In this document: positions 1-9,302 of the stretch, piece by piece
Layout of the letters: each line of letters begins with the position of its first letter
Numbering within the stretch: the stretch's first letter is position 1
Source of the DNA: Planctomycetota bacterium
GTDB taxonomy: Bacteria; Planctomycetota; UBA1135; GCA-002686595
Reading direction: 5' to 3'
DNA: 11,187 nucleotides
NCBI GenBank assembly: GCA_027623615.1
Contig: JAQBVH010000039.1
Coordinates: 1-11,187, forward strand
The notes under the pieces: model-generated
The model's input: the letters and a program-made list of their open reading frames with translations, nothing else
Databases searched by the model: none
What the model was told of the DNA's origin: nothing
Made by a program: the position numbers and the translations under genes

Positions 1-1127
1 TCAAGGCACGCAACGAATCCCGACTTGCCGCCGCCATCGTGGCGGGTGGGCTGCTCGTCCTGTTCGAGAGTCGGATCGAGCGGATCAACCCCGAGAGCGT
101 GGACCTGCGCGTCGGAGACCAGGGCGAGCCGCTGCGCCTCGGCAACGACGACGTGTTCTTGATGCTGGGTGGAACGCCGCCCTTCGATCTCCTGCGCGCC
201 TCCGGAGTCGTCTTCGACCCGAAGCTGAGGCCAGCTGCGGCCGCGTCGGTCACGCGACGAGGCCTCCTCTGGTCCCTCGTCGCCGCGCTCCTCTTCGCCG
301 CCGCTGCCCTCGCCTGGGTCCTGACGAACGGCGACTACTACCGCAGCGACTGGGCCACGCGGGCAGCGAGTGAGCAGGGTCGCTTCCTGTGGCCGAGCCG
401 AGGCTCCGGACTCGCCGTGGGCGTGGTGGCCACCGGGCTGCTGCTAGCCAACCTCGCCTACATCCTGCGCCGCTCGAGCTGGTTCCCGCTGGCTTGGGGC
501 TCCCTGCAGCGCTGGATGACGGTGCACATGATCACGGGCGTCACCTGCCTGGTCGCGGCCCTCCTGCACGGCGGGATGACCCCACGGGACACGGTCGGTG
601 GTCACGCTCTGTGGGGCCTGGCCGTGCTGGTCCTGACCGGACTCGTTGGGCGGTTCCTCTACGCGTTCGTCCCGCGCGCCGCGAACGGACGGGAGCTGGC
701 CCTCGAGGAGGTGCAGGCACAGCTCGTCGAGATCACCCAGGGTTGGGATCGGCTCCATCGAGGTTTCGCGGACCAGGCTCGACAAGAGGTGCAACACCTC
801 GTCGAAGCCCAGCGCTGGAAGGGCGGAGTCGTGAGGCGCGTCCTCGGCATGCTCATCGGCCGCAGGCACCTGCAGGGCGGCCTCGCGCGTCTCGAACAGA
901 AGGCCCGCGCGGCGGAGCTCCCCGAGGACCAGGTCGCCGCCATCACGCGCCTCGCGCGCCAGGCGTACCGCGCCGCCAACGCCGCAGCGCACCACGAGGA
1001 GCTCCGGGCCGTCCTGGGCAGTTGGCGCTATCTGCACCGGTGGGTGGCCCTGGGCGTCGTGCTCCTGGTCGGTGTGCATGTCGTCGCGGCGCTGCGCTTC
1101 GCCAGCTTCGGAGGGTGGTCGGGATGA
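1..1127 (+). CDS. FAD-dependent NAD(P) oxidoreductase fused to dihaem-b-like membrane domain (5' partial)
   Basis: The reading frame is open to the left edge (first full codon at 3), so the N-terminal part, presumably with the FAD and NAD(P) folds, is missing; the GTG at 39 is not a real start. The first visible ~60 residues look like the end of a pyridine nucleotide-disulphide oxidoreductase/thioredoxin-reductase-like domain: the NDDVF...GGTPPFDLLRASGV pattern is typical of its last strand and helix. Numbering from nt 39, about five membrane helices follow (roughly 75-95, 123-143, 160-178, 189-211, 335-353), with a ~110-residue charged helical region between the last two. Helix 3 carries H163 and H177 and helix 5 carries H333 and H347. 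The 14-residue spacing on both helices is that of bis-histidine b-haem pairs in cytochrome b and ferric-reductase-type proteins. I infer electron transfer from NAD(P)H through FAD and two b haems across the inner membrane. The stop overlaps the next start (ATGA). The direction of electron flow and the true donor are not shown by the sequence. Confidence 0.8.
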   Translation, partial: KARNESRLAAAIVAGGLLVLFESRIERINPESVDLRVGDQGEPLRLGNDDVFLMLGGTPPFDLLRASGVVFDPKLRPAAAASVTRRGLLWSLVAALLFAAAALAWVLTNGDYYRSDWATRAASEQGRFLWPSRGSGLAVGVVATGLLLANLAYILRRSSWFPLAWGSLQRWMTVHMITGVTCLVAALLHGGMTPRDTVGGHALWGLAVLVLTGLVGRFLYAFVPRAANGRELALEEVQAQLVEITQGWDRLHRGFADQARQEVQHLVEAQRWKGGVVRRVLGMLIGRRHLQGGLARLEQKARAAELPEDQVAAITRLARQAYRAANAAAHHEELRAVLGSWRYLHRWVALGVVLLVGVHVVAALRFASFGGWSG

Positions 1128-3280
1128 AGGCCGCGCTGATCAAGGTCGCCGTTGCGGCGACCTCCCTCGCGATCGTGGCGTACCTCGTCGTGCTCGACCT
1201 GCCGAAGGCGACGCCGGGACCCCTGACCCCCGTGCATGCGCGCCTCCCCGAGCTCCAGGGCCTCGACGGGTGCGCGGTCTGTCACGGTGGCGACGGCCGC
1301 TCGCTCGCGGAGGCGTGCCTCGACTGTCACGCCCCCATCGCTCAGGACATCGAGCTGGGCACGGGGCTGCACGGCGCGCCGCTCGATCAGCCCGTGGCGC
1401 AGTGCGGGGCCTGCCACGTGGAGCACCACGGGGACGCTCTCCCCCTGACCGGGGAGCTGGCGTTCACGCGGGCCGGGGTCGCGGGTCCCGCCGGCTTCGA
1501 CCACGCCCTCGTCGGCTACCTGCTCGAGGGTGTCCACACCTCGCAGGCCTGCGACGCCTGCCACCGCAGCGTCGACCACGCCTGGATCCCCGACGGCCTG
1601 CAACGCTTCGGTGGTCTGGACCGGAACTGCGCGGGCTGCCACGAGGACCCCCACGAGGCGCCGATGCTGCGCGGCTGCGCGGACTGCCACGGTCAGTCCC
1701 TGCCGTTCGCCGAGCTGGACGGCTTCGTGCACGCGGCCGAGCACCCGCTGATCGGCGGGCACGCAGGCCTGCGCTGCGCCGATTGTCACACCGGTTCCTA
1801 CGCGGTCGAAGCCGTGGCGGGCGTGAGCCCTCCCGTGTCACGCACCTGCGCCGACTGCCACGAGGACCCACACAGCCAGGCCTTCCTCGAGCACGAGGAC
1901 GCGCCCGAGGGAGCCAGCTGCGCCAACTGCCACGGGCTGGACGCCTGGCTGCCGGCCGAGCTGACGGAAGTGCAGCACTCGCGGTCGGGATTTCCCCTCG
2001 AGGAGCCCCACGACACGGTCGCGTGCGCCGACTGTCACGCGCCCAGCGCCGCCTTCGCAGCTCGCTTCCCGGGCCGGCGCCAGGACGAATGCGCGTCGTG
2101 TCACAGCGACCCGCACGGCGGACAGTTCGCGGGCGGCCCACTCTCGAGCTGCATCGATTGCCACGGCCGGACCTCCTTCGCCGACTGCACCTTCGGGGTC
2201 GAGGAGCACGCGCTGACCCCCTTCCCCTTGACCGGTGCCCACGCGACGACCGACTGCCAGGCTTGCCACGGCGCGACGCTCACGGAGTTCCGCGGGCTCA
2301 CCTCGACCTGCGCGGACTGCCACGGCGACGCGCACCGCGGCGCGCTGGAGGGATCCTGCGACCAGTGCCACGGGACGACGGCCTTCCGGGACGTGCTCAG
2401 CTCGTTCGACCACCAGGGCGCTACGGGATTCGCCCTTGCAGGTGCCCACGGCGCGGCGTCCTGCGAGAGCTGCCACCCGCGCAGCGCGATGGCCGACAGG
2501 CACGGGCGCACCTTGGGGTTCGTCGCCGAGCACTACCCCGGGGACACGGGCCGCTGCGCGACCTGCCATGACGACGTCCACCAGGGCACCTTCGGCGCGC
2601 AGGACTGCGCGGACTGTCACGGCTTCGAGCACTTCGCACCGGCCCGCGAGTTCGACCACGCGGCCGCGGGCTTCCCCCTGGAAGGCGCCCACGCCCAGAC
2701 GGCCTGCGCCACCTGTCACCCTGCCGACGCTGACGCTCCCCGCGGGTTCGCCCACGCCAGCAGTCACTTCGGCGGCACCACCTGTGCAGCGTGCCACGAG
2801 GACGCGCACCGGCCGACCCTGGGCACCGATTGCGCCTCGTGCCACGACACGCTCACCTTCCGAGCGGTCACCCGTGGCTTCGACCATGAGCGCGACACCC
2901 GGTTCGCCCTGGTCGGGGTCCACTCCGCGATCTCCTGCGCGGAGTGTCATCCGCCCCAGCTGCAGGGAGCCCGCTCCTTCGGTCATGCCCAGGGGACCAG
3001 CTGCGCCGACTGCCACGCCGATCCCCACGCCGGACAGTTCCGCGAGGCGCGGGGTGCGACCGACTGCGCCGCTTGCCACGGGACCGGTGGTCCGTGGTCC
3101 AGCGTGACCTTCGATCACGCAGCGAGCGCGTTCCCACTGGATGAGACTCACGCGGCGCTCGCGTGCGCGGCGTGTCACCAGCCGAGTCGCCTGCGCTCGG
3201 GACGTGAGGTCGTGCGCTACAAGCCCATCGCGCACTCCTGCGCGGATTGCCACGGCAAGAACTTCGCAGGCCCGCGATGA
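1124..3280 (+). CDS. 26-haem membrane-anchored c-type cytochrome
   Basis: The protein has 718 residues, starting at the ATG that overlaps the previous stop; the frame is open further upstream but that part is out of phase with the gene 1 protein. Residues ~6-25 form one hydrophobic segment without a clear AxA cleavage site, so it is probably an uncleaved inner-membrane anchor with the rest in the periplasm. I count 26 CxxCH haem-attachment motifs between residues 50 and 710. After three N-terminal motifs there are eight repeats of about 77 residues beginning near residue 125. Each has the plan FDH-x-FPLxGxH-x-CxxCH, then CxxCHxDxHxG, then CxxCHG; the last unit carries only two haems. The extra histidines in FDH, GxH and DxH are natural distal ligands, suggesting mostly bis-His low-potential haems. 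It resembles the cytochrome c3/doubled-CXXCH class seen in metal-reducing bacteria. I infer a periplasm-spanning haem wire between the upstream oxidoreductase and the downstream barrel. The haem count is read directly from the sequence; the role is inferred. Confidence 0.93.
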   Translation: MKAALIKVAVAATSLAIVAYLVVLDLPKATPGPLTPVHARLPELQGLDGCAVCHGGDGRSLAEACLDCHAPIAQDIELGTGLHGAPLDQPVAQCGACHVEHHGDALPLTGELAFTRAGVAGPAGFDHALVGYLLEGVHTSQACDACHRSVDHAWIPDGLQRFGGLDRNCAGCHEDPHEAPMLRGCADCHGQSLPFAELDGFVHAAEHPLIGGHAGLRCADCHTGSYAVEAVAGVSPPVSRTCADCHEDPHSQAFLEHEDAPEGASCANCHGLDAWLPAELTEVQHSRSGFPLEEPHDTVACADCHAPSAAFAARFPGRRQDECASCHSDPHGGQFAGGPLSSCIDCHGRTSFADCTFGVEEHALTPFPLTGAHATTDCQACHGATLTEFRGLTSTCADCHGDAHRGALEGSCDQCHGTTAFRDVLSSFDHQGATGFALAGAHGAASCESCHPRSAMADRHGRTLGFVAEHYPGDTGRCATCHDDVHQGTFGAQDCADCHGFEHFAPAREFDHAAAGFPLEGAHAQTACATCHPADADAPRGFAHASSHFGGTTCAACHEDAHRPTLGTDCASCHDTLTFRAVTRGFDHERDTRFALVGVHSAISCAECHPPQLQGARSFGHAQGTSCADCHADPHAGQFREARGATDCAACHGTGGPWSSVTFDHAASAFPLDETHAALACAACHQPSRLRSGREVVRYKPIAHSCADCHGKNFAGPR
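1496..3250 (+). repeat. Eight in-gene tri-haem repeats
   Basis: This is protein-level repetition inside the 26-haem cytochrome. Eight units begin with an FDH-like motif (FDH, FVH, VQH, EEH, FDH, FDH, FDH, FDH), the first at nt 1496 and the last at nt 3110. The spacing averages about 77 codons. Each full unit contributes three CxxCH motifs and about three non-CxxCH histidines. The DNA is diverged between units, so this is an old expansion of the coding sequence and not a recent tandem duplication. Confidence 0.85.
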
Positions 3281-4878
3281 GAGCGCCGCTGATTGCCCTC
3301 CTCCTGATCGGGTCCGCCTGGGCCCAGGACGCGCAGCTCGAGGCCCGGGTCGTTCAGACCCTGGGCGAGCAGTTGACCCTCGACCGCGGCACCGACAGCG
3401 GCGTCGAGCCCGGGGATCGCGTGCAGATCGTTCCCGTGGTCGGCGCGACGCGCGAGGGCACGGTGGAGTCGGTCGCGGCCCGCGAGTGCTGGGTCAGCCT
3501 GGAGGGCTCGGCGGCGGTCCCGCCCGGAACGCGCGCCGTGATCTACGTTCCGGCCGCGCGCCTCGAGGCCGAGGGCGACGACTACGAGTGGGAAGGCGGC
3601 CCGGTGGAGTGGGACACCGACATGCCCCTGTTGGCCGAGGTCTCCTCGCCCGCGCCGAAGGATCGCGAGCGCGAGGTGCGCGGTCGTTGGTACGTCATGG
3701 CCGAGTGGGTCGACGACGCCCATTACGACCAGGAGTACGCGTTCGCGCGCGCCGGCCTCGACCTGGAGATCGAGAACCCCTTCGGGCGCGGCGGAGAGCT
3801 CGAGTTCGACGGCGAGTTCCTGCTGCGCTCGGCCGACGTGCAGGACGACGAGGACAGCGACGACAGCGCCCTGCGCATCGACCGGCTGAGCTACGTCTTC
3901 GGCGGCCGGGCGGGCTCGCAGCGCCGCTACGCCTACGGGCGCTTCTTGCAGGCGGAGGTGCCCGAGTTCGGCGTGCTCGACGGCGTGCAGGTCGTGCAAC
4001 AGCTCGCGAGCGGGGACCGCTTCGGCGTGAGCGCCGGCCTGATGCCCGAGACGCGCGAGGACCTGGCGACCGGGGACGACGTGCAGGCCGCGGTCTTCTA
4101 CCGCCACGTGCGCGGACCGCGCGAGGAGCTCAGCTTCGTCGGTGCGTACCAGAAGACCTGGCACGCGGGGCGCGCGGACCGGGACCTCGTCCTGGCGGGC
4201 GCGCGCTGGTACCCAGGGGACGGCTGGTCGGCCTGGGGCAGCGCGTGGATCGACCTGTACGGGTCGGAAGACACGCTCAAGGGCTCGGGCGCTGAGCTCA
4301 CGCGCCTCAGCGCGGGCTTCGGCAAGACCTTCGGCAGCACCGGGGGCCTCCACGCGACCCTGTCCGAGTACCGCTTCCCCGAGCTGCTGCGGAACGAGTC
4401 CAACCCTGCCAGCGACGGCGACCTCGCGCACGACCGAACGCAGCGCCTCTCCCTCTCGGGCTGGCGGCGCGTCACGGAGCGACTCCGCTTGAACGCGCGG
4501 CTCGACCGGTGGAGCGATGAGTCCGACTCCGGCTCGGGCGGAGAGCTAGGCCTCCAGGTCCGGGACTGGGGCCTCGGGAACAGCCGCTTCTCGATCGCGT
4601 TGACGCACCAACAGGGGCTGTTCGGCGACATCTCCGGACTGCGCGCGACCTACGGACGCTACGGTCCGGGCGGCGCTTGGGGTTTGACCTGGCAGTCGGG
4701 CACGCACGAGACCCCGGGCTTCTTCGGCCAGCAGGCCTCCCTCGACCAGGACCGGCTGCGCCTCTTCCTCGATCGGCACACCAGGTCGGGTTGGGACCTG
4801 TCGGTCTACCTCGAACAACGCAGCGGGGACGAGCAGGACTCGCTCCTGCTCGGCTTCTACCTCCAGCGAGGATTCTGA
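3277..4878 (+). CDS. Outer-membrane beta-barrel, candidate cytochrome-conduit porin
   Basis: The protein has 533 residues; its ATG at 3277 overlaps the cytochrome stop (ATGA). A signal peptide ends at SAWA|Q (residue 16). Residues ~20-92 form a small beta-rich domain with the pattern LDRGTDSGVEPGDRV, reminiscent of soluble beta domains that precede other envelope proteins. An acidic linker (~95-135) follows. From about residue 140 to the end the sequence alternates hydrophobic and polar residues with aromatic girdles and short D/G/S-rich turns, and it finishes in ...GFYLQRGF. A C-terminal Phe is the usual outer-membrane barrel signal. About 390 residues of barrel would allow some 16-20 strands. 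It sits between two many-haem cytochromes, which is the layout of MtrB/OmbB-type porins that sheath a cytochrome wire. I do not recognise it as a close MtrB relative, so the porin-conduit role rests on context. A generic porin or barrel is the main alternative. Confidence 0.85.
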   Translation: MRAPLIALLLIGSAWAQDAQLEARVVQTLGEQLTLDRGTDSGVEPGDRVQIVPVVGATREGTVESVAARECWVSLEGSAAVPPGTRAVIYVPAARLEAEGDDYEWEGGPVEWDTDMPLLAEVSSPAPKDREREVRGRWYVMAEWVDDAHYDQEYAFARAGLDLEIENPFGRGGELEFDGEFLLRSADVQDDEDSDDSALRIDRLSYVFGGRAGSQRRYAYGRFLQAEVPEFGVLDGVQVVQQLASGDRFGVSAGLMPETREDLATGDDVQAAVFYRHVRGPREELSFVGAYQKTWHAGRADRDLVLAGARWYPGDGWSAWGSAWIDLYGSEDTLKGSGAELTRLSAGFGKTFGSTGGLHATLSEYRFPELLRNESNPASDGDLAHDRTQRLSLSGWRRVTERLRLNARLDRWSDESDSGSGGELGLQVRDWGLGNSRFSIALTHQQGLFGDISGLRATYGRYGPGGAWGLTWQSGTHETPGFFGQQASLDQDRLRLFLDRHTRSGWDLSVYLEQRSGDEQDSLLLGFYLQRGF

Positions 4879-6227
4879 TGAGACCTCTCCCTTGGATCGT
4901 CACCCTGGTCCTAATGGGCTATGTCCTGCTCGCCGCCTGCTCGATGGGCTCGGGGCCCGTCGACCCCCAGGAGTGGAACACGCGGCGAGGACCGGTCGTG
5001 CCCCACGCGGACTTCCCCGCCGACTGCTCACTCTGTCACCTCCCAGGCTCGTGGACCCGGATCCGAGACGAGTTCAGCTTCGACCACGGCGCGCAGACAG
5101 GGGTCGTCCTCGAGGGCGCGCACGCCGCGGCGGAGTGCCTGCGTTGCCACAACGACCGTGGTCCGGTCGCCGTCTTCGCCCAGCGCGGCTGCGCGGGCTG
5201 CCACGAGGACGTGCACCGCGCCCAGCTCGGGAAGAACTGCGCGGACTGCCACGGCGAGCAGACCTGGCAGCCCCACGATCGCATCCTGGCCCACGGCACG
5301 ACGCGCATGCCCCTCGTGGGCGCCCACGCCGCGGTCGCCTGCTGGCGCTGCCACCAGGGAGCCGAGACCGGAGAGTTCACGGGTCTGGACCCCGACTGCG
5401 CGAGCTGCCACGCGGCGGACCTCGCCCGCGCGAGCGACCCCGATCACCTCACGCTGGGCTGGACCGCCAACTGCGACCGCTGCCACATCCCGACGACCTG
5501 GGCGGGCGAGGGCTTCAACCACGCGACCTTCCCGTTGACCGGCACGCACGCGACCACCGACTGCGCGGAGTGTCATGGGGACGGGCTCTTCGCCGGCACC
5601 CCGCACGATTGCTACGCCTGCCATGCAGCCGAGTACCAGTCGGCCCTCGACCCTGACCACGTCGAGCTGGGTCTGCCCACCGACTGTCGCCTCTGCCACG
5701 GCACGTGGCACTGGACCCCGGCCTCCTTCAACCACGGCTGGGTCACCCAGGCCTGCGTGGAGTGCCACCTGACGGAGTACCAGAACACGACCGAGCCCGA
5801 CCACGAGGTCCTCCAACTCCCCACCTCCTGCCAGGACTGTCACGGGACGAACTTCTGGGTGCCGGCCACCTTCGACCACGAGGGGCTGACCCAGGACTGC
5901 GCGGCCTGCCACCTGTCCGACTACGAGGCCACGACCGACCCCGACCACGAAGCGGCTGGCTTCCCCACCGACTGCGCAGCCTGCCACAACACGCGCACCT
6001 GGTACGGGGGCAGCTTCGACCACGACTTCCCGATCAACAGCGGAGACCACGCCGGCTTCGACTGCGCGGACTGCCACATCCAGCCGCGCAACTTCGCGGT
6101 GTTCACGTGCACCCAGTGCCACGCCCACCAGAAGCGCGACATGGACGACGAGCACGAGGACGAGCGCGGCTACATGTACGAGACCATGGCCTGCTACGCC
6201 TGCCACCCGGACGGGAAGGAGGACTAG
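4878..6227 (+). CDS. 17-haem c-type cytochrome lipoprotein
   Basis: The protein has 449 residues. The ATG at 4878 shares one base with the upstream stop (TGATG), showing tight coupling. Residues 1-21 are a lipoprotein signal peptide ending in the lipobox LAAC, with Cys21 the lipidated residue and Ser at +2, consistent with outer-membrane sorting. There are 17 CxxCH motifs in about 430 mature residues, roughly one haem per 25 residues. The first half uses the same FDH/GAH/CxxCH tri-haem repeat as the 26-haem cytochrome. The second half uses a shorter di-haem repeat with the pattern PDHxxLGLPTxCxxCHGTxxW...FxHxxxTQxCxxCH. The C-terminus is rich in His, Asp and Glu and ends shortly after the last CYACH. 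I infer that it plugs or caps the neighbouring barrel as the outer-membrane terminal of the conduit. Whether it faces the periplasm (MtrA-like) or the cell surface (MtrC-like) cannot be told from sequence. Confidence 0.93.
   Translation: MRPLPWIVTLVLMGYVLLAACSMGSGPVDPQEWNTRRGPVVPHADFPADCSLCHLPGSWTRIRDEFSFDHGAQTGVVLEGAHAAAECLRCHNDRGPVAVFAQRGCAGCHEDVHRAQLGKNCADCHGEQTWQPHDRILAHGTTRMPLVGAHAAVACWRCHQGAETGEFTGLDPDCASCHAADLARASDPDHLTLGWTANCDRCHIPTTWAGEGFNHATFPLTGTHATTDCAECHGDGLFAGTPHDCYACHAAEYQSALDPDHVELGLPTDCRLCHGTWHWTPASFNHGWVTQACVECHLTEYQNTTEPDHEVLQLPTSCQDCHGTNFWVPATFDHEGLTQDCAACHLSDYEATTDPDHEAAGFPTDCAACHNTRTWYGGSFDHDFPINSGDHAGFDCADCHIQPRNFAVFTCTQCHAHQKRDMDDEHEDERGYMYETMACYACHPDGKED
5649..6002 (+). 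repeat. 48-residue di-haem tandem repeats
   Basis: Within the 17-haem lipoprotein, three repeats begin at nt 5649, 5793 and 5937, exactly 144 nt (48 codons) apart; the third runs only to its TW motif at 6002. Each starts DPDH or EPDH, then LPT/FPT-x-CxxCH, then a W-containing turn. A looser relative starts at nt 5436. The exact spacing suggests a more recent expansion than the tri-haem units. Confidence 0.85.
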
Positions 6228-6234
6228 CCCGTCT

Positions 6235-6258
6235 CTGAGACCCGGCGTCGGGGCTCAG
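6235..6258. terminator. Possible bidirectional hairpin terminator between convergent operons
   Basis: CTGAG (6235-6239) pairs with CTCAG (6254-6258). After an A.G mismatch, CCCG (6241-6244) pairs with CGGG (6249-6252), leaving a 4-base loop. It lies 7 bases after the cytochrome stop and overlaps the stop codon of the convergent apbE gene. No T-run follows on either strand, so factor-independent termination is uncertain; position is the main support. Confidence 0.4.
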
Positions 6259-7256
6259 CGCTCGAGGCCCGCGGTGACGTGCACCTTGCCGTCCATGTCG
6301 ACCACGAGCGCCTCGAGGCGTGGCAGGGCTTCGATCCAGCGCAGACCGCTCGGGCCCTCGACGCAGAGCGCCGTCGCGAGGGCGTCGGCGAGGGCCGCGT
6401 CCGGTGCGACCACCGTGGCGGTCATGCAGCCGCGCGCCGGTGCGCCCGTGCGGGGATCGAGGATGTGGTGGTAGCGCACCCCGTCGAGCTCGAAGAAGCG
6501 CTCGTAGTCGCCGGAGGTGACCAGCGCCGTGTTCGAGACCGGGATCGCCGCGAGCAACGCCTCACGGTCCCGGGGATGCTGGATCGCGATGCGCCACGGG
6601 CGCCCCTCGCGCTGGCCGAGGGCCTTGAGGTCGCCGCCGGCGTTGACGATGCCGTGCTCGACGCCGTGCTCGCGCAGGACGTCCATCGCGCGGTCGACGC
6701 CGTAACCCTTGGCGATCCCGCCCAGGCCGATGGCCATCCCTGCGGGGAGGTCGACGGTCGACGCGGGGAGGTCGACGTGGACGCGCGCCCAGCCGACGCG
6801 GGTGAGCGCGGCCTCGAGTTCTTCGGCGCTCGGCACGCGGGGGTGCTCGGCCTTGAAGTCCCACAGGTCGCCGGCGCCCTTGTACGTGGGATCGAAGGCG
6901 CCGCCGGTCAGCTCGGCCACGTCCAGGGCGCGCTGGATCATGCGCGCCAGCTCCTCGGACACGGGGACCGGCCCCCGGCCGCTCGACGCGTTGAGCCGCA
7001 TGAGGGGCGAGTCGCGCCAGGTCGTCATCACGTCCTCGACGCGCCGCAGCTCCACCTCGGCCGCGAGCAACGCGCGCTCGAGGCGCTCGGGGACGGGGCC
7101 CTCGGCCTCGAGGACGACCTCCGTACCCATCGCTCCGAACTTGCGGATGCGGTGGTAGCTCGCGGAGCGCTCGGCGGGTGCGGCCTCCGCGGGCCTTGAG
7201 GGGGAGCTCGCGCATGCTGCGATCGCGAGCGCGGCCAGCAGGCCGAGCGACCTCAC
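6255..7256 (-). CDS. apbE: ApbE-family FAD:protein FMN transferase, lipoprotein
   Basis: The protein has 333 residues. The start is a GTG at 7256 that overlaps the upstream thioredoxin stop (GTGA). A short lipoprotein signal ends at AIAAC with Cys15 lipidated, placing the enzyme on the periplasmic side of a membrane. Family motifs in order: GAMGTE (41-46), GGAFDPT (118-124), LGGIAKGYGVD (178-188), NAGGDL (205-210), SGDYER (248-253) and HHILDPRTG (263-271), then the late DALATAL helix. Length and motif order match full ApbE, which uses FAD and Mg2+ to attach FMN covalently to a Thr or Ser of extracytoplasmic redox proteins. The usual Asp before LGGIAKG is Gly177 here. It is the last gene of the - strand operon after DUF4266, DUF3570 and thioredoxin genes. 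No classical flavinylation motif of the S/DGATxS/T kind was found in the proteins of this window, so the acceptor is unknown. Confidence 0.96.
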   Translation of the reverse strand: MRSLGLLAALAIAACASSPSRPAEAAPAERSASYHRIRKFGAMGTEVVLEAEGPVPERLERALLAAEVELRRVEDVMTTWRDSPLMRLNASSGRGPVPVSEELARMIQRALDVAELTGGAFDPTYKGAGDLWDFKAEHPRVPSAEELEAALTRVGWARVHVDLPASTVDLPAGMAIGLGGIAKGYGVDRAMDVLREHGVEHGIVNAGGDLKALGQREGRPWRIAIQHPRDREALLAAIPVSNTALVTSGDYERFFELDGVRYHHILDPRTGAPARGCMTATVVAPDAALADALATALCVEGPSGLRWIEALPRLEALVVDMDGKVHVTAGLER

Positions 7257-7723
7257 AGCTCGGCCAGGACCGCGTCGAAGTCCGGCAGCTCGTGACCGCG
7301 CTCGATCAGGCGCCCGCTGGCATCGAGCACGACGATCGTCGGCGTGGCGTCGACGTCGAAGGCGTGCGTCAGGGTCAGCTCACGATCGCGAACCTGGGGA
7401 TAGGTCAGCCCGAGCTTCCCGATCAGGCTGACGAGCTTGGCCTCGTCCACGCTGCTGTCCGGTCCAGAGACCACGCCGACGATCGCGATGCGGTCCCCAT
7501 GACGTTCATGCGCCGCCTGCACGAGGGGCGCCTCCTGAACGCAAGCGCGTCACCAGCTCTGCCAGTAGACGAGGGCCACCGGTCGGCCGCGCAGGTCGAG
7601 GGCGTCGCCGTTCAGCGTTTCGACGAGCAGGTGCTCCGCGGCGATGGGCTCACGCGGCTGCGGGTTCGAGGCCGGACCGGCGCAGGAGGCCACGAGCAGG
7701 GTCAAGGCGAGGAGTATGCGCAT
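7253..7723 (-). CDS. TlpA/thioredoxin-like lipoprotein, predicted selenoprotein (UxxC)
   Basis: Read through the in-frame TGA at 7552-7550, the gene encodes 156 residues. ATG 7723 overlaps the upstream stop (TGATG) and the TGA stop at 7253 overlaps apbE. The signal MRILLALTLLVASC has a VASC lipobox (Cys14). The fold reads as TlpA/thioredoxin: a LNGDALDLRGRPVALVYWQSW strand, the active-site loop, then EAPLVQAAHERHGDRIAIVGVV, and the cis-Pro motif ATPTIVVLDASGRL (Pro128). The active-site loop is W57-TGA58-R-A-C61, so the stop replaces precisely the N-terminal, nucleophilic Cys of CxxC. Both halves are in the same frame with no indel and good family sequence continues after the TGA. I therefore call it a selenocysteine UxxC oxidoreductase working on envelope thiols, probably proteins of its own operon. 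The alternatives are a nonsense mutation or sequencing error (TGC to TGA); the exact placement and the hairpin below argue against them. Confidence 0.82.
7513..7544 (-). promoter_or_regulatory. Candidate bacterial SECIS hairpin
   Basis: On the - strand, counting from the base after the TGA, GAGG (+16 to +19; 7534-7531) pairs with CCTC (+24 to +27; 7526-7523) around a CGCC loop (7530-7527). The stem continues outward through CA/TG and, after mismatches, TTGC (+6 to +9) with GCGG (+34 to +37), including G.U pairs. The apical loop starts about 20 bases after the UGA and has G as its second base, as bacterial SECIS models expect. The hairpin was found by hand; folding energy was not computed. Confidence 0.5.
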
Positions 7724-8880
7724 CAGAAGGAGTAGCGCCACCCGATGGTGGCCGTGAGGTGGTTGAGGCCGTCGCTGCGGTCCGTGTAGTCCACGCCGAA
7801 GTCCCAGGTCGTCGACTCGCTGCGAAACCAGGTGAAGTGCGAGCCCAGGGTATGCGCGTCGAAGTCGCCCAGGTCCGAATCCTGGGTGCGCTCCTTCTCG
7901 ATCACCACGAAGGAGTGCGCGAACGCGTCCGCTTCGGTCTGGCTGTAGATCCGATAGCGCAGGGCGACCGCCCACCGGTCACCCAGACGCTGGTGCCAGC
8001 TCGGCTCGAGGCTGAAGGCGGTGATGCCCCAATCGTCCTGATAGATGCGCGCGCCGAGGCCGATCGAGCGGCCCTCGGAGAGGCGATGGCGCACCTTGGC
8101 GTGCACCGCCGTGCGCAGGCGGCTGTCGGGGAGCTCCTCGGTCACCTCGAAGCCACGCGCGAAGTTGTCCAGGTTTCCGTTCGGGGGCGCGAACGGATCC
8201 TCGATGACCACCGCGTTGTAGGGGGTCTCGAGATATCCCGACTGCGCGCCAAGGGTGAGGCCGACCTCCCCGTGGGTGCGCGGCGAGAGCACCTGGTACC
8301 AGTTGAGGTTGGCCGAGAGCGTGGTCCGGTCGTCGTCGCCCGTCTCGACCCCGTCGAAGCGGATCAGATCGACCGTGTCGAGGTAGGCGCTCAGCGACGC
8401 CTTGAGGCGCGCGTTCCCGCCGTCGAACTCCTTGCCCCAACTCCCTCCCAGACCGATCGAGGTGTAGTCGTACTCCTTGCTGAAGTGCAAGTTGCCGCCC
8501 ACGTCCGTCGCCTGGTCCCAAAGATAGCTGAGGCCCAGGTCCAGCCCGAAGTAGAAGTCCCCCGAGGCCCCGGACTGACCGTCGAACTTGGAGAGTCGGT
8601 CGATCGACGCGCTCGAGACGTTGTCGTAGGAGAACATCGACGATCCGCGCAGGCGCGGGTTGAGGTCGGTCTCGAACAGGACCACCGGCTCGATCACGGT
8701 CAGCTCCTCGTCGAGGAACGGGTTGCCGTCACCCGAGTCTGGCTGCTGGAACAGGCCGAGCCGGAACGCCCAGGTGGTCGTCCCGGTGTCGTCGTGGCCT
8801 GGTCGGCCGAGAGGGTCCTCCTCGTCCTGGGCAGCCGCGGCGCCGACCAGCACGAGCCCGAGCCCTAGTAGCAGCCGCAT
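7723..8880 (-). CDS. DUF3570 outer-membrane beta-barrel protein
   Basis: The protein has 385 residues from ATG 8880, with a signal peptide ending GAAAA|Q (~residue 17). The mature protein is built of amphipathic strands alternating with Asp/Gly/Ser turns, such as SSMFSYDNVSSASIDRLS, GLDLGLSYLWDQATDVGG and RLKASLSAYLDTVDLI. It closes with DYTDRSDGLNHLTATIGWRYSF; the TDRSDGL segment and terminal Phe fit the DUF3570 family of predicted outer-membrane proteins. The start overlaps the end of the DUF4266 gene by 16 bases and the stop overlaps the thioredoxin start. The family has no settled biochemical function that I know of, but it is repeatedly found beside DUF4266, TlpA-like thioredoxin and ApbE genes. 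I infer an outer-membrane part of a flavin/thiol redox system. Confidence 0.88.
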   Translation of the reverse strand: MRLLLGLGLVLVGAAAAQDEEDPLGRPGHDDTGTTTWAFRLGLFQQPDSGDGNPFLDEELTVIEPVVLFETDLNPRLRGSSMFSYDNVSSASIDRLSKFDGQSGASGDFYFGLDLGLSYLWDQATDVGGNLHFSKEYDYTSIGLGGSWGKEFDGGNARLKASLSAYLDTVDLIRFDGVETGDDDRTTLSANLNWYQVLSPRTHGEVGLTLGAQSGYLETPYNAVVIEDPFAPPNGNLDNFARGFEVTEELPDSRLRTAVHAKVRHRLSEGRSIGLGARIYQDDWGITAFSLEPSWHQRLGDRWAVALRYRIYSQTEADAFAHSFVVIEKERTQDSDLGDFDAHTLGSHFTWFRSESTTWDFGVDYTDRSDGLNHLTATIGWRYSF

Positions 8881-9092
8881 CCGCCGCCCGCCAAAGAACC
8901 GACGCCGCCGATCGCGCCCTCACAGGAGTAGAGGACCTTCTGCTGGAAGTGGATCAGGGTCGGATCCTCGTCGAACTGCATGGTGACGTCGGTCAAGGCC
9001 TCGCGTTCGTAGAACTCGACCGAGGTGCAGGACGGCGCGAGACCGAGGAGCGGGAGGAGCACGAACCAGCGCGCCGAGCGGGAGAAGCGCAT
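8865..9092 (-). CDS. DUF4266 small lipoprotein
   Basis: The protein has 75 residues. I chose ATG 9092 over a start at 9167 because it places a standard signal directly at the N-terminus: RFSRSAR, a hydrophobic core, then LAPSC with Cys22 lipidated. The mature part reads SVEFYEREALTD, MQFDEDP, then a glycine-rich tail ending GGGCGCY. The YERE-LA-M-DP order and the GGGCGC tail are the DUF4266 signature. Besides the lipid Cys there are Cys57, Cys72 and Cys74, so a CxC pair at the very end could be a disulphide, metal or modification site. It is the first gene of the - strand operon and overlaps the DUF3570 gene by 16 bases. Function is unknown. The thioredoxin two genes downstream is a plausible partner for its cysteines. 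No strong ribosome binding site is visible ahead of the ATG. Confidence 0.85.
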   Translation of the reverse strand: MRFSRSARWFVLLPLLGLAPSCTSVEFYEREALTDVTMQFDEDPTLIHFQQKVLYSCEGAIGGVGSLAGGGCGCY

Positions 9093-9302
9093 GTCGCCAT
9101 CATCGGACAATCGAGCGGGTTCGCGCATTCGGACTTGTGCGGATTCTCGAGCTCGCGGGGCGTGCACACCGGTCGGACGTTCGTCGAGCGGCCGGGTCCC
9201 GGACTACTCCAGAGGCGCGTCCGCGAACTGACGGTCGTCTGAAAATCTTGACGACCGCCTCCACTTGGACTCGCTCGGTCGACCGTGCGAGGATGCTCCT
9301 GC
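9093..9302. promoter_or_regulatory. Divergent intergenic region (promoters expected)
   Basis: These 210 bases separate the DUF4266 gene (-) from the TrkA-C gene (+), so both operons should have promoters here. On the + strand TTGACG (9248-9253) resembles a -35 box, but no convincing -10 box follows at 16-18 bases. No clear operator palindrome or RNA gene was seen. Short open frames across it (for example + from 9137) look like GC-rich noise. Confidence 0.35.
9289..9293 (+). promoter_or_regulatory. Ribosome binding site for the TrkA-C gene
   Basis: GAGGA lies 9 bases before ATG 9303. It supports that start over the in-frame GTG at 9285, which would sit upstream of the binding site. Confidence 0.5.

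Follow-up and report, generated by a model that had tools for sequence, protein, structure and literature searches.

Does an in-frame TGA in the active site of a bacterial thioredoxin end the gene, or does it encode selenocysteine (Sec)? The question is raised by a DNA stretch of 11,187 nt (hereafter the window) from a Planctomycetota bacterium (UBA1135; GCA-002686595), comprising positions 1-11,187 of contig JAQBVH010000039.1 in assembly GCA_027623615.1, which carries a thioredoxin gene within a module of DUF4266, DUF3570 and ApbE genes. The initial annotation, made from the sequence alone, proposed that a TGA replaces the nucleophilic cysteine of the CxxC motif and is read as Sec. Comparison with related genomes indicates that the thioredoxin is very probably a true selenoprotein in which TGA codon 58 is read as Sec.

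Results

An in-frame TGA at the catalytic cysteine codon

The minus-strand frame from 7723 to 7253 reads M..LLVASC ... VYWQSW-TGA-RAC ... TPTIVVL ... AEL-TGA, and its internal TGA, at 7552-7550, lies exactly in the place of the first Cys of WCxxC (codon 58), as the annotation had claimed. When the TGA is read as Cys, Pfam matches to Redoxin (6.8e-11) and AhpC-TSA (3.2e-09) span it. P128, which we take to be the cis-proline of the thioredoxin active site, is invariant. The L-V-A-S-C motif matches what is presumably the lipobox consensus. An AlphaFold2 model with Cys replacing Sec has a mean predicted local distance difference test (pLDDT) score of 90, and ResA is among the nearest solved folds, at ~20% identity. 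Under translation table 11 the frame is split, as the annotation foresaw for standard gene callers, into two open reading frames (ORFs), one ending at 7550 and the other (7253-7522) beginning at an internal GTG. An 89-residue piece is present in the protein database as a protein (P0002), and a search of that database returned this piece of the window's own together with five relatives, each of which has Cys.

Codon 58 among relatives

A protein search covered 101 genomes, including that of the window (G000; 4.45 Mb in 847 contigs, 72% complete), and 30 loci were fetched. Codon 58 is TGA in seven of them (G000, G001 of the same genus, G009, G014, G037, G045 and G058), TGC or TGT in 22 and uncovered in one; two of the 22 Cys loci (L033, L034) are distant paralogues, leaving 20 Cys orthologues. 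A codon-exact scan for the motif TWY-TGG-CAR-NNN-TGG-xxx-NNN-NNN-TGY covered 154 genomes of the order and found TGA at this position in nine genomes and TGC/TGT in 25, the latter being motif matches of which only part were checked as orthologues; TAA, TAG or TGG occurred in none of the 154, and a backward-pattern control was without match in the rows reported. Orthology, confirmed for the TGA rows, set aside one genome (G076), whose match is another Sec thioredoxin that lacks the module, and left eight orthologues, the eighth being G113, which has the module. Among 392 genomes drawn from the phylum, the TGA form was found in three: G000, G009 and, newly, G194, which is labelled only as the same phylum, lies outside the order and has the whole module. 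In total, nine genomes including G000 carry a TGA orthologue (eight of the order, one elsewhere in the phylum), spread over its own genus and five further genera; most are metagenome-assembled genomes (MAGs) of 64-92% completeness. The comparison of homologues that the annotation had suggested thus yielded orthologues with either Cys or TGA at codon 58.

No further in-frame stop was seen in the aligned part of the nine TGA orthologues. Differences among them at third codon positions exceed those at second positions 1.5-fold over the 30 codons preceding the TGA and 2.1-2.3-fold behind it, a pattern indicating that the frame behind the TGA is still under selection. The locus shows one mark by which bacterial selenoproteins are recognised, namely UGA where homologues have Cys and a frame kept beyond it.

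Both residues occur at codon 58 within a single genus (g10, three TGA and one Cys). A tree was built from 32 proteins, nine with Sec and 23 with Cys, with TGA coded as C and the column kept; it requires five Sec/Cys changes, at least three of them forced by supported branches. A single origin of the Sec form was rejected on these grounds, and the tree indicates that Sec/Cys exchange is repeated in the lineage.

Selenocysteine machinery

The genome of the window encodes SelB (328.9 bits against a cut-off of 242, with model positions 1-355 matched in a frame of 664 residues), SelA (318 bits, cut-off 268; gene truncated at the end of its contig) and SelD (323 bits, cut-off 125). Its SelD is itself a TGA selenoprotein and reads CAGUAAK (L135:990-1853, contig C484), at what we take to be the usual Sec place in SelD; the match of this frame ends near residue 284, perhaps through an assembly frameshift. 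In G001, tRNA-Sec follows selA-selD on the same contig; the first 3000 of the 3911 bases of the G000 sel contig are collinear with that contig, which puts the expected tRNA-Sec place in G000 ~0.8 kb past the contig end. Among the 101 genomes, matches over cut-off were obtained for tRNA-Sec in 95, SelA in 96, SelB in 93 and SelD in 94. tRNA-Sec is also present in G113 and G194, and SelA is whole in the latter.

A candidate Sec insertion sequence (SECIS) lies directly behind the TGA (Table 1), where single-sequence folding gave hairpins. Folding stability was compared with that of synonymous recodings in seven TGA and 20 Cys genes, and the TGA genes were the more stably folded in the intervals 3-48 (p=0.0008), 0-45 (p=0.001) and 6-51 (p=0.011) behind the codon; two distal intervals showed no excess folding in TGA relative to Cys genes. 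Because the seven sequences, a set without G113 and G194, are related and the near intervals were picked after a first look at the folds, this result is support rather than proof. At gathering scores the window gave no hit to the Rfam SECIS families, and L005 gave only unrelated weak ones at E up to 10.

Gene neighbourhood

The DUF4266, DUF3570, thioredoxin and ApbE genes all lie on the minus strand, with neighbouring frames overlapping by 1-16 bases, and the adjacency of ApbE, DUF3570, DUF4266 and thioredoxin-like genes by which flavinylation modules are defined is found in the window. A search of the DUF3570 protein for [S/T]GA[S/T] found one exact motif (SGAS, residue 103) and one variant (SSAS, residue 89). 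Of 16 sequences scanned for the CxC tail of DUF4266, 14 yielded it; of the two others, L130 has no adjoining DUF4266, and L132 has a DUF4266 match with the tail undetected and 64 N in the locus. A Sec form of DUF4266 (UxC or CxU) was considered and rejected, all 14 tails being CxC.

The Cys form keeps the same company. A scan of contigs with a Cys motif gave 28 loci; the scan is blind to TGA forms because the pattern had Cys, and part of its loci are on the same contigs as in the 101-genome search. DUF3570 is adjacent in 25 of 26 Cys-form loci (L101-L126), as is ApbE (25/26); these 26 come from named records, many titled Planctomycetota and including Pla163, Pla86 and Poly30. Two of the 28 loci (L127, L128) are without the module.

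Table 1. Features of the window discussed in the text (FAD, flavin adenine dinucleotide; FMN, flavin mononucleotide)
Feature	Position	Strand	Evidence or remark
Sec-containing ResA/TlpA-like thioredoxin lipoprotein gene (predicted)	7253..7723	-	156 residues with TGA read through
Codon 58, TGA, putatively read as Sec (U of W-U-R-A-C)	7550..7552	-	sequence and orthologue comparison
Codon 61, resolving cysteine of UxxC	7541..7543	-	invariant in 16-sequence alignment
Codon 128, proline at cis-Pro position of the active site	7340..7342	-	P128 invariant in 16-sequence alignment
Codon 14, Cys of lipobox L-V-A-S-C	7682..7684	-	C14 nearly invariant in 16-sequence alignment
Candidate SECIS region, 45 nt behind TGA	7505..7549	-	hairpin in G000, apical loop from 27 nt after TGA
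ApbE, FAD:protein FMN transferase	6255..7256	-	PF02424 1.1e-85; GTG start overlaps thioredoxin stop
DUF3570 protein, predicted FMN-bearing partner	7723..8880	-	PF12094 1.9e-35
DUF4266 small protein, ends GGGCGCY (CxC motif, Cys not Sec)	8865..9167	-	PF14086 3.3e-12
Pyridine-nucleotide oxidoreductase C-terminal part + cytochrome-b-like membrane domain	3..1127	+	weak matches only; cut by window edge
Multihaem cytochrome c	1124..3280	+	PF14522 1.3e-28, PF14537 8.7e-24 in frame 389-3280
Probable outer-membrane beta-barrel protein	3277..4878	+	barrel inferred from sequence; conserved beside cytochromes in G001, G009
Second multihaem cytochrome c	4878..6227	+	PF14522 8.3e-20 in frame 4677-6227

A cytochrome cluster on the plus strand converges with the module (Table 1); its frame 3277..4878 had no match in Pfam and NCBIfam searches. 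This cluster recurs close to the TGA gene in G009, G001 and, partly, G194, and a homologue of the oxidoreductase/cytochrome-b-like gene is found in the vicinity of the module in both G194 and G009. In G194, ApbE is followed on the same strand by a gene for an Fe-S/pyridine-nucleotide oxidoreductase, a cytochrome-b-like gene and a multihaem gene. In G009 (L134:2388-6791) a single open frame of 1467 residues holds both the multihaem cytochrome and the oxidoreductase/cytochrome-b-like part, where the window has two frames. The TGA thioredoxin of G001 is flanked by a TrkA-C gene on one side and cytochromes on the other, a neighbourhood as in the window, and a response-regulator gene occupies the expected DUF3570/DUF4266 place (L130:4444-7865). 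The region 3-6227 of the window may be an uncharacterised electron conduit, found also in G009 and in the fetched part of G001.

Other thioredoxins of the order also have TGA in the active site. In all ten weaker thioredoxin matches selected for one counted TGA, this codon falls precisely on the first Cys of the active site, in WUGPC, WUPPC or WUAPC (L138-L144 and L146-L148, from G014, G045, G013, G024, G042, G044, G039, G057, G011 and G091). The G076 protein (L186:4893-5327) is TlpA-like, reads WQTWUGPC and lies outside an ApbE module. Judged from the ten matches, Sec thioredoxins appear to be abundant in the order.

Discussion

The Sec reading put forward in the annotation is upheld by the nine TGA orthologues, the 20 Cys orthologues and the presence of SelA, SelB and SelD in the assembly. 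Several results nonetheless weigh against it. The search for Sec machinery was answered in part, the three proteins scoring over cut-off; tRNA-Sec, present in G001, was not found over cut-off in the 72%-complete G000 assembly, and four matches to its model below cut-off are Ser and Leu tRNAs. SelA occurs in G113 only as pieces, each below cut-off, a SelA match is absent from G045 (76% complete), and none of the four Sec genes was over cut-off in G058 (64% complete). The folding signal is absent from the interval 3-39 (p=0.28; seven TGA and 20 Cys genes), and RNAalifold on the seven sequences gave three pairs, no covariation and no conserved hairpin. Finally, the TGA thioredoxin of G001 has no adjoining DUF3570, DUF4266 or ApbE.

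Explanations that dispense with Sec fare far worse. One alternative, confined to a single MAG, is that the gene carries a nonsense mutation, is a pseudogene or was misassembled, and the fragmented assembly and broken selD match mean that errors are possible; however, the same TGA stands in eight other genomes, including one from beyond the order, where no further stop interrupts the frame and selection acts on it behind the TGA, and we rejected this explanation on the TGA counts across genomes as exceedingly improbable. The gene could alternatively be two short proteins, the first ending at the TGA and the second starting at GTG 7522, and indeed both ORFs exist and the P0002 piece is held in the protein database. 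Either half, however, would be without half of the active site, the Cys forms are a single open frame, and the frame is unchanged across the TGA in nine orthologues, which leaves the split gene hardly any credence and led to its rejection. As for a changed code, in which TGA is read as Cys or Trp, the TGA does occupy the place of a Cys codon; yet TGA terminates seven of nine window frames examined, that of the thioredoxin included, and with TGA as the usual stop and Sec genes present in G000 such a change was likewise rejected as vanishingly unlikely.

The preferred reading, a selenoprotein, leaves its role to be weighed. We propose an extracytoplasmic ResA/TlpA-like lipoprotein thioredoxin whose nucleophile would be Sec; SelB and tRNA-Sec would insert it at UGA, aided by a structure directly behind the codon. 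The UxxC pair may act as a fast selenolate/thiol reductase serving the DUF4266-DUF3570-ApbE redox module, and electrons would pass between the thioredoxin and the CxC of DUF4266, thereby linking it to the FMN that DUF3570 receives from ApbE; both these partners and the direction of electron flow are putative. The module is a presumed extracytoplasmic electron mover, and we regard a role of the thioredoxin in it as about an even chance. In G000 the protein might also work jointly with the adjoining multihaem cytochrome cluster. It is possible, though doubtful, that the selenoprotein instead keeps the CXXCH cysteines of multihaem cytochromes reduced for haem attachment, as ResA and CcmG would, and does not serve the flavin module. 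Against this, the cytochrome/barrel cluster is found at none of the 26 Cys-form loci (flanks up to 7 kb, several contigs short), where DUF3570 and ApbE are each present in 25, and the TGA loci of G014, G037, G045, G058 and G113 have the module, with no cytochrome cluster found in 6-15 kb.

The annotation held the combination to be undescribed, which proved correct for the selenium form only. Clusters of DUF4266, DUF3570, thioredoxin-like and ApbE genes, the same four families as in the window, have been described, with the thioredoxin-like gene a usual member, DUF3570 shown to be flavinylated and bearing two conserved [S/T]GA[S/T] motifs, and the CxC tail of DUF4266 noted (Meheust et al. 2021, PMC8238504). 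That gene is given as PF13899 in DsbD clusters, whereas the window protein has a Redoxin/AhpC-TSA domain and a Sec nucleophile; 'seleno' has no occurrence in that text. Redoxin-family (PF08534) selenoproteins with UxxC are known (2026 review, PMC13188914), as are the Trx-like 1 and Prx-like 3 selenoproteins of marine metagenomes (GOS study, PMC2398784). These proteins share with the window protein a UxxC in a Redoxin-type thioredoxin fold; they are listed without an ApbE module, a comparison made by class listing, and 'ApbE' does not occur in the available text of the review. The ResA-like WAxxUGC-motif protein of NCBIfam (NF041054) likewise has an active-site Sec by name, and the window protein scores 27.4 bits against its cut-off of 300. 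The thiol reductases ResA and CcmG, which act in cytochrome c maturation, share the fold and WCxxC position at ~20% identity; the window protein has Sec for Cys and another operon, and scores 47.8 bits against the ResA model NF002854 (cut-off 170). Within the same phylum, Planctomycetes P1 and P2 have Sec genes and selenoproteins; the examples named in the sections consulted are formate and formylmethanofuran dehydrogenases, and supplementary candidates may overlap with the window protein (PMC4807772). Searches of open-licence PMC articles for selenoproteins together with ApbE or with flavinylation returned two and one papers, respectively, none of which, judged by title and abstract start, deals with such a combination. 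As a thioredoxin-like gene is already usual in the module, only the selenium form is new; Sec in a DUF4266-DUF3570-ApbE module, with repeated Sec/Cys exchange, is well supported by sequence as a new finding.

Since ordinary gene calling splits the gene, the active-site half of the module thioredoxin will be missed where Sec is used. The module may, as a tentative suggestion, form an extracytoplasmic wire in which a Sec thioredoxin links DUF4266 thiols, the ApbE-attached flavin of DUF3570 and multihaem cytochromes, and in which the use of Sec or Cys changes from lineage to lineage; if so, thiol, selenol, flavin and haem chemistry would be combined in one system. The alternation of Sec and Cys at one codon, even within one genus, provides natural pairs for asking what benefit selenium brings to an extracytoplasmic relay, and the Sec form would offer 75Se labelling as a handle on a module of uncertain function.
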